Source: Flavobacterium sinopsychrotolerans
GTDB taxonomy: Bacteria > Bacteroidota > Bacteroidia > Flavobacteriales > Flavobacteriaceae
Assembly: GCF_900110375.1 (NCBI RefSeq)
Contig: NZ_FODN01000001.1
Coordinates: 806,001-870,000, forward strand
DNA length: 64,000 bases
Direction of reading: 5' to 3'
Shown here: in pieces, positions 28,997-51,655 of the stretch
How the letters are laid out: each line of letters starts with the position of its first letter
How positions within the stretch are numbered: the stretch's first letter is position 1
Translations under genes and position numbers: made by a program
Notes under the pieces: model-generated
Told to the model about the DNA's origin: nothing
Databases searched by the model: none
What the model saw: the letters and a program-made list of their open reading frames with translations, nothing else

Positions 28997-29014
28997 TTTC
29001 AAACTAATTCGTTT

Positions 29015-29044
29015 AACCATATAAGACATTTAAGGTCATATAAG
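29015..29044 (+). repeat. Left inverted repeat of the GxxExxY unit
   Basis: 30 bp beginning AACCATATAAGACATT and ending GGTCATATAAG. It matches the reverse complement of 29561-29590 at 28 of 30 positions. It begins 18 bp after the sufE stop and contains two CATATAAG words. Confidence 0.85.
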
Positions 29045-29069: not shown

Positions 29070-29477
29070 ATGACCAAAACATATTTAAAAGATTTAGTGT
29101 ATCAGGTTAATGGTTGTGCTATAGAAGTACATAAGCATCTTGGTCCCGGTCTTTTAGAAAGTGTTTATCATACTTGTTTAAAAAAAGAATTGACAATTAG
29201 AGGTTTTGAATTTCTAACTGAACTTACAATTCCTGTTTATTATAAAGGTTTAGAACTTGAAGCAGGATTAAGATGTGACTTATTGGTTGAAAAAAGTTTA
29301 GTAGTTGAACTTAAAGCAGTCGAAAAAGTTTTACCAATACATGAAGCCCAAATTTTAACCTATATGAACCTTTTAGAAATTCCTATAGGATTAATGATAA
29401 ATTTCAATGTAACACATATTTTTAAAGAAGGACAAAAAACATATGTCAACGAAAGATATAGACATCTGGATGAATAA
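29070..29477 (+). CDS. GxxExxY protein (PD-(D/E)xK nuclease-like)
   Basis: A 135-aa protein of the GxxExxY family. The name motif is GLLESVY (G27, E30, Y33). A PD-(D/E)xK nuclease-like core follows: D70 in LRCDLLV, E80 and K82 in VVELKAV, and Q94 with Tyr in EAQILTYM. All four candidate active-site positions are kept, so nuclease activity is possible; the family's biological role is unknown to me. The gene lies between sufE and the DUF59 gene, bounded on both sides by 30-bp inverted repeats. This suggests it came in as a unit rather than belonging to the Fe-S pathway. Confidence 0.9.
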   Translation: MTKTYLKDLVYQVNGCAIEVHKHLGPGLLESVYHTCLKKELTIRGFEFLTELTIPVYYKGLELEAGLRCDLLVEKSLVVELKAVEKVLPIHEAQILTYMNLLEIPIGLMINFNVTHIFKEGQKTYVNERYRHLDE

Positions 29478-29560: not shown

Positions 29561-29590
29561 CTTAAATGACCTTCAATGTCTTATATGGTT
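29561..29590 (-). repeat. Right inverted repeat of the GxxExxY unit
   Basis: 30 bp ending CAATGTCTTATATGGTT. Its reverse complement differs from 29015-29044 at two positions only. It is 14 bp before the start of the DUF59 gene. Confidence 0.85.
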
Positions 29591-29604
29591 AAAACACTCA
29601 AACA

Positions 29605-50210: not shown

Positions 50211-50574
50211 GTTTTTTTAAACATATAAGCCACATAAGTTTTTAAAAATTAAATAAGTAGTGAAGTTTTTGTCATTTATTTTCTTTTAAAATGGAGACTG
50301 ACACCTGTTTTTTTAACATATAAGTCATGTAAGTTTTTAAAAATTAGACAAGTAGTCAACTTTTTGTCATTTCTTTTCTTTCAAAAAATAGAGACTGAAA
50401 CCTATTTTTTTAACATATAAGGCATATAAGTTCATATAAGAATTGAAATATTTTTATACAGTTTCATTTTATAATTTTTAAAAGTAAAACTTAGATGACT
50501 TATACGTTTCAAAAATTAAACATATAAGTCATCTAAGAAATCTTAAAAAAAAAACTTATATGACTTATATGTTT
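50211..50574. repeat. CATATAAG repeat array
   Basis: Two tandem units (50211-50306 and 50307-50403; 96 and 97 nt, roughly 87 percent identical by eye) and the head of a third, each headed by AACATATAAG-nCAn-TAAG. Further copies follow: inverse at 50490-50509, direct at 50518-50537 and inverse at 50555-50574. The same motif bounds the GxxExxY unit at 29015-29590. No ORF inside. Confidence 0.85.
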
Positions 50575-50587
50575 CAAAATCAAAATC

Positions 50588-51655
50588 TTACATTTTAGCT
50601 CTTTCGTATTGTTTCGGCCATTCGACATCCGCATTTAAATCATGAGCAAATGTCAATCCCAGATTCGGATTTCTAAGGGATTCTCTGGCAAATAACACTA
50701 AATCCGCTTTTCCTGAAGCAACTATTTCTTCGGCTTGAGCGGCATCAGTAATTAAACCTACGGCGCTAGTCAGGATTCCGGTTTCATTTTTTATGCTTTC
50801 CGCAAAAGGAACTTGGTAATTTGGTCCCAAAGGAATTTGTTGGTGTGAAACTAATCCTCCCGAAGAAACATCAATTAAATCCACGCCTTTTTCTTTTAAC
50901 ATTTTCGAAAGCTGTACCGATTCCTCCAAGTTCCATCCGCCTTCTGCCCAATCTGTAGCCGAAATTCTAACGAATAAAGGCAAGTTTTCCGGCCATTCTG
51001 ATTGAACTGCATCCACGACTTCGAGTGTTAAACGGATTCGGTTTTCAAAACTTCCACCATATGCATCGGTTCTAAAATTAGACAAAGGCGAAAGAAACTG
51101 ATGCAACAAATACCCGTGTGCGGCATGAATTTCCATTACCTGAAAACCTGCTTGAACCGCTCTTTTTGTAGCTGATTTAAAGTCGGAAACTACCTTTTGA
51201 ATTCCCGCTTCGTCTAATGCAACGAGTGAGTTTTCAGTGTGATGATACGCAACCGCACTTGGCGCCATGGTATCCCAACCGCCTTGTGTTGCGTCTAGTT
51301 TTCGGCCTCCGTTCCAAGGTGATGCGGCACTTGCTTTTCTTCCGGCATGCGCCAATTGGATTCCGGGAACCGATTTCTGACTGATAATAAATTGATTAAT
51401 CTGCTGCATTTTTTCGATTTGCTCGTCTTTCCAAAGTCCCAAATCTTCTGGTGAAATTCGACCTTCGGGAGAAACTGAAGTCGCTTCCTGGATGATTAAT
51501 CCCGCACCACCACTGGCACGACTTCCAAGATGTACAAGATGCCAGTCATTGGCAAAGCCATCTTGGGCCGAATATTGGCACATTGGTGAAATAGCAATTC
51601 TATTTTTTAGCGTTATGCTTTTTATTTTGAGTGGAGAAAATAATTTTGAAGACAT
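50588..51655 (-). CDS. NADH:flavin oxidoreductase, old yellow enzyme family (YqjM/NamA-like)
   Basis: A 355-aa FMN-dependent ene-reductase. Seen are LKNRIAISPMCQYSAQDG (with the Cys typical of YqjM-type enzymes), WHLVHLGSRASGGAGLIIQEATSV, the His pair and Tyr of QVMEIHAAHGYLLHQFLSP, and LVLFARESLRNP at the C-terminal flavin phosphate site. It reduces activated double bonds with NADPH. Physiological substrate unknown. Confidence 0.95.
   Translation of the reverse strand: MSSKLFSPLKIKSITLKNRIAISPMCQYSAQDGFANDWHLVHLGSRASGGAGLIIQEATSVSPEGRISPEDLGLWKDEQIEKMQQINQFIISQKSVPGIQLAHAGRKASAASPWNGGRKLDATQGGWDTMAPSAVAYHHTENSLVALDEAGIQKVVSDFKSATKRAVQAGFQVMEIHAAHGYLLHQFLSPLSNFRTDAYGGSFENRIRLTLEVVDAVQSEWPENLPLFVRISATDWAEGGWNLEESVQLSKMLKEKGVDLIDVSSGGLVSHQQIPLGPNYQVPFAESIKNETGILTSAVGLITDAAQAEEIVASGKADLVLFARESLRNPNLGLTFAHDLNADVEWPKQYERAKM

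Follow-up and report, generated by a model that had tools for sequence, protein, structure and literature searches.

An array of short repeats in Flavobacterium sinopsychrotolerans, located at positions 50221-50572 of a 64,000-nt stretch of contig NZ_FODN01000001.1 (806,001-870,000, forward strand; hereafter the window), is with high confidence a gene-less relative of an element in the same window that carries a GxxExxY gene. We further consider it probable, on present sequence evidence, that the array belongs to an intergenic family with CATATAAG-type iteron ends whose members would be moved in trans by a fixed GxxExxY master gene. We know of no role assigned to GxxExxY proteins to date.

The array and the GxxExxY unit

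The array comprises six copies (five exact, one near-exact) of the motif ACATATAAG-N-CA-NN-TAAG in the order F F F R F R, where F and R denote motif orientation. The first three F copies head tandem units and start 95 and 97 nt apart; the original prediction had given 96 and 97, of which the second value was right. Units 1 and 2 share 87% identity across 79 nt, and unit 3 matches them by its head alone, in agreement with the partial third unit that had been described. The count of six copies in less than 400 bp between two leftward genes is likewise confirmed.

The same motif forms the ends of the GxxExxY unit, for which matches at 29015 and 29561 had been predicted. Its left terminal inverted repeat (29012-29044, + strand) holds three iterons, CCATATAAG-ACATTTAAG-GTCATATAAG, as many as the right one (29561-29593, - strand), and these 33-nt arms, which are 94% complementary, enclose the GxxExxY gene (29070-29477, + strand). 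The encoded protein of 135 aa belongs to the PD-(D/E)XK nuclease superfamily (TIGR04256, PF13366): it scores 136.2 bits against the TIGR04256 profile, above the curated cut-off of 35, and also hits PDDEXK_3. Its catalytic residues D70, E80 and K82 are intact and invariant in 19 sequences, and the protein model (pLDDT 95.8) shows a confident PD-(D/E)XK fold. This model is nearest to the Cas4-like SSO0001, with a weaker likeness to Hjc resolvases and lambda exonuclease, and a search of it against the PDB gave nothing below an E-value of 0.001; PADLOC matched the protein to Cas4 (E 5e-4). It is the only GxxExxY gene in the genome, and 96% identical proteins occur in F. omnivorum and Flavobacterium sp. 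RSP15.

Dispersed copies in the genome

A genome-wide search (3.52 Mb, 19 contigs) recovered 42 copies of the motif at no more than one mismatch and none of the reversed pattern, which rules out a chance origin and shows that the motif is not confined to the array and the 29-kb unit; the remaining matches in the window, with 2-3 mismatches, are at chance level. The copies make up about 20 short hairpin-like sites, and nearly all are inward-facing pairs in intergenic gaps, mostly 36-200 bp apart, with doublet loops of 2-230 nt. Arms resemble their partner in the doublet more than the arms of other doublets (0/2000 permutations). Interiors are mostly unrelated between copies; the members of one subfamily, about 160 bp long, have a common interior and are present at three unrelated sites here and at more in a relative (G007; G, L and C numbers are our labels for genomes, sequence stretches and contigs). 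The doublet at C7:579779, directly after an intrinsic terminator, is absent from G007 and G029.

Some doublets are nested in the loop of another family (L376, L384, L391, L111 and L022), for example CGCAAAG or CATTAAG pairs inside CATATAAG pairs. Also, beside a probable tRNA gene (L042 versus L260), the G029 region is expanded and carries an additional CATTAAG hairpin as well as repeated pieces resembling tRNA ends, none of which occur here.

Gene-less derivatives at the sufE-DUF59 site

The genus was sampled with 200 Flavobacterium genomes, one per species. The clade of the window's GxxExxY protein is found in 38/200 of them, with one copy per genome at the sufE-DUF59 site. Some species have nothing in this gap (5 bp in G010, 11 bp in G030), others have the full element, and G019 has a decayed gene. 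The CATATAAG ends are left with the gene gone in G113 (80 bp) and G005 (158 bp), and the 156-bp gap of G151 retains the ends plus the last GxxExxY codons. Given these ends-only and ends-plus-codons forms, gene-less elements do arise from the gene-bearing one, by internal deletion. Other hairpin families occupy the gap in further species, CATTAAG in G150, G004 and G006 and CACGAATT in G008. In G029 and G105 (L226, L245), the same gap contains an unrelated insertion, about 730 bp long, that seemingly encodes a secreted protein.

Copy number, subtype and gene presence

The number of motif copies per genome varies from 0 to 55 across the genus, with a median of 8 where the gene is present versus 1 where it is absent (p 1e-8). 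A constant number without any link to GxxExxY genes, which would have spoken against the original prediction, was therefore not what we found. Although the genes lie at the same site, some have ends of a subtype, CATATAAGTDATRTAAG (S2), and this subtype is reflected in the dispersed copies: at least five dispersed CATATAAGTDATRTAAG copies are present in 14/14 genomes with that end subtype (6-74 copies) versus 1/24 others (Fisher 1.6e-9), the reversed control giving 0 in 200/200 genomes. The CATATAAGTDATRTAAG subtype is probably one lineage and hence does not represent 14 independent events. The common ends, the subtype match and the deletion derivatives bear out the gene-less kinship that had been proposed under the name of a non-autonomous relative.

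End type follows the protein clade

GxxExxY proteins were found in 162/200 genus genomes, several per genome, and the flanks of 122 loci were typed for iteron ends. Loci whose protein is at least 61% identical to that of the window have CATATAAG ends, those at 52-61% have CACATAG or CATTAAG, and those at about 50% and lower have CACAGAG, CGCAAAG, CACGAAG or CACAGATT end types. On a tree of 115 proteins, five end labels, which were assigned by pattern and include a broad CACAGAG class, require 5 changes (minimum 4) versus a shuffled mean of 58.7; a larger set of 162 proteins that takes in other families requires 12 changes versus 80.3. A plain inverted-repeat score was weak, with 110/122 loci at 16 or more versus 63/150 for a direct-orientation control, and given that this control also scores high on AT-rich flanks, iteron type was used instead.

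Beyond the genus, a scan with the window GxxExxY protein alone as query found CATATAAG-type ends around its clade in about 23 flank clusters, an upper bound as short flanks may split some. These are distributed over at least eight families: Flavobacteriaceae, Weeksellaceae, Sphingobacteriaceae, Cyclobacteriaceae, Saprospiraceae, Marinilabiliaceae, Prolixibacteraceae and Crocinitomicaceae. The nuclease gene and the repeats have evolved together across the phylum, a pattern suggestive of a nuclease family that has received little study and that has a population of parasitic mini-repeats of its own.

As a separate observation, the sole gene for a 23S-rRNA-IVP protein (four-helix bundle, PF05635), at C15:207425, is flanked by CAAAG iterons (L045:1435-1470, L045:1841-1865), as if the same arrangement held for a second protein family.

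History of the array

Two relatives with 86-90% DNA identity, G007 and G029, carry three F and one R copies in the same intergenic gap. F1 (ACATATAAGCCACATAAG, 50221-50238, + strand), F2 (50316-50333, + strand) and F3 (50413-50430, + strand, followed by a third iteron, TTCATATAAG) are all present there. From this common layout, the core of the array is best seen as one old element whose end was tandemly amplified. The part from F4 (50520-50537, + strand) to R2 (50555-50572, - strand) is absent from the relatives and private to the F. sinopsychrotolerans genome; R2 is the outermost closing arm and adjoins the flank common to relatives. The array thus appears to have grown through tandem amplification of a single end, together with one recently added F/R pair, and the original suggestion of a remnant of several insertions is not supported, since nothing but this last pair is private. 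R1 (50490-50507, - strand) is a closing arm with one mismatch, and its private TCATCTAAG variant is common to F4, with which it is complementary over 20 nt with one mismatch around an 8-nt loop. The occurrence of this variant in both copies suggests copying through a hairpin. Slippage, or unequal recombination between ends, may later have produced the tandem units, and hairpin template switching, or the insertion of one doublet beside an old one, may account for the final R-F-R part.

The gap is bounded by two leftward genes, a GFO/IDH/MocA oxidoreductase, for which 50184 is the likely start (a longer open reading frame starting at 50235 would overlap the array), and an NADH:flavin oxidoreductase with its stop end at 50588. 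Among other relatives, G017 has a shorter version of the array; in G010 the gap measures 55 bp and lacks it, and in G004, G008, G015, G005, G006 and G030 it is hairpins of other iteron families that occupy the gap. Similarly, a comparison of L034 and L038 with L271-L279 reveals different hairpin families in one gap of close species, as if swapped. Elsewhere in the genus, arrays of the same motif repeat one end (L112, L113, L115, L116), and in L114 an outer pair is nested around four inner pairs. In L115 and L116, the two ends of the tandem unit differ, one being CATATAAG and the other of CACAGATT type (AATCTGTGTAATCTGTGG).

Mechanism and alternative explanations

It can reasonably be inferred that GxxExxY acts on the array and moves the repeats. 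The nuclease would bind its own iteron ends, whether folded into DNA hairpins or brought together as a pair, and would promote their copying or retention in trans, with a fixed master gene and dispersed non-autonomous copies in the manner of RAYT and REPINs. Several results weigh against such action in trans. Within the S2 lineage, genomes without the gene have a median of 27 copies versus 31 in those with it (p 0.44); G008, which belongs to this lineage and lacks the gene, has 91 copies, and in G007, which has no clade gene, the motif occurs 27 times. It follows that, in the absence of the gene, the repeats persist or are still being moved. The CATATAAG clade occupies one site in the genus (38/38 genomes), whereas the other end types occupy 6, 4, 9 and 2, so that part of the association between ends and clade reflects vertical inheritance, and the association counts are uncorrected for phylogeny. 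No clean target-site duplication is seen at C7:579779, the one filled/empty pair. Also, CATATAAG-type pairs in L379, L380 and L387 enclose apparent host intrinsic terminators; a simple internal-deletion unit does not account for these, and given such enclosed terminators and hairpins of other families, at least some doublets are not simple transposed units.

The many copies in genomes without the clade gene would also fit another enzyme that moves the ends or hairpins, the GxxExxY gene being a cargo or passenger travelling with them, and hairpins of several iteron families are found in the same intergenic gaps, as though a single host process dealt with every family. We nevertheless regard this as unlikely, though it is the most serious of the alternatives: at the sites fetched from the F. 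sinopsychrotolerans genome, no other protein and no other transposase was seen inside CATATAAG ends, and the ends follow the protein clade across sites and families, beyond species alone. Mobilization as REP/REPIN elements by a RAYT (Y1/HUH) transposase is highly improbable and was rejected as the main explanation; the doublets are inverted and intergenic and the genome has three Y1_Tnp matches, but the inverted repeats at these loci are unrelated and the CATATAAG motif does not occur there as a pair, with one stray CATATAAG in about 9.6 kb around them. The three Y1_Tnp genes (L046, L047, L048), one of which lies near 33.6 kb on the contig of the window, have long inverted repeats of their own (36 to 77 nt).

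It could also be argued that these are functional intergenic RNA or DNA hairpins under selection, as 3'-end stabilisers or terminators, and that the resemblance to GxxExxY ends is secondary. Many sites lie about 6-40 bp past a stop codon, arms covary within a doublet, different families replace each other at one place, and the array motifs are 94-97% conserved between species versus 87% for the spacers. However, the T-run precedes the stem on its 5' side and the A-run follows on its 3' side, opposite to the polarity of an intrinsic terminator, and that role was rejected; divergent genes flank some of the sites (L013, L039), presence varies among close relatives, and the clade-specific ends of GxxExxY genes are left unexplained. 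Selected hairpins thus seem a poor candidate next to movement by the GxxExxY master gene.

Comparison with known systems

Within the literature outside subscription journals, GxxExxY (TIGR04256 / PF13366 PDDEXK_3) with iteron ends or dispersed repeats was not found, and the sequences of the terminal motif gave no literature matches. The closest arrangement is that of REPIN/RAYT, with intergenic inverted doublets, a single-copy gene conserved in site and the repeat in the gene's own flanks (Bertels and co-workers; PMC3116915, PMC8049555). RAYT genes are single-copy and vertically inherited, and dispersed doublets are commoner where the gene is present (PMC8049555); likewise, the GxxExxY gene is apparently vertically inherited and copies are more common with it. 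Here too the doublets are inverted and intergenic, but the gene flanked by the same repeat is GxxExxY instead of a Y1/HUH gene, and it is GxxExxY (38/38), not a RAYT, that is single-copy at a conserved site. In contrast to the Y1/HUH transposase RAYT, the enzyme is a PD-(D/E)XK nuclease, and instead of a G+C-rich REP palindrome with a tetranucleotide tag, the ends consist of two to three AT-rich iterons of 9-10 bp; the variable doublet loops (2-230 nt) are a further difference. Given that both enzyme and ends differ, the array system is not a member of REPIN/RAYT. The repeats also resemble the miniature inverted-repeat transposable elements of insertion sequences in being short and gene-less, in having terminal inverted repeats common to a gene-bearing element and in the internal-deletion derivatives at one site, but they differ in the lack of a DDE or other known transposase, of a clean target-site duplication at the one filled/empty pair and of related interiors in most copies.

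Implications

We tentatively propose, at somewhat less than even probability, that GxxExxY proteins are the site-recognising nucleases of widespread and undescribed mini-element systems of Bacteroidota, in which each clade would have its own iteron end (CATATAAG, CATTAAG, CACATAG, CACAGAG/CGCAAAG, CACAGATT or CAyCTAAG), a fixed gene and gene-less hairpins or arrays genome-wide. The one-to-one match between clade and iteron provides a predicted DNA target for each GxxExxY clade and offers a source for the common intergenic repeats of Bacteroidota. Such systems would be a second case of the REPIN/RAYT arrangement, with an unrelated enzyme.
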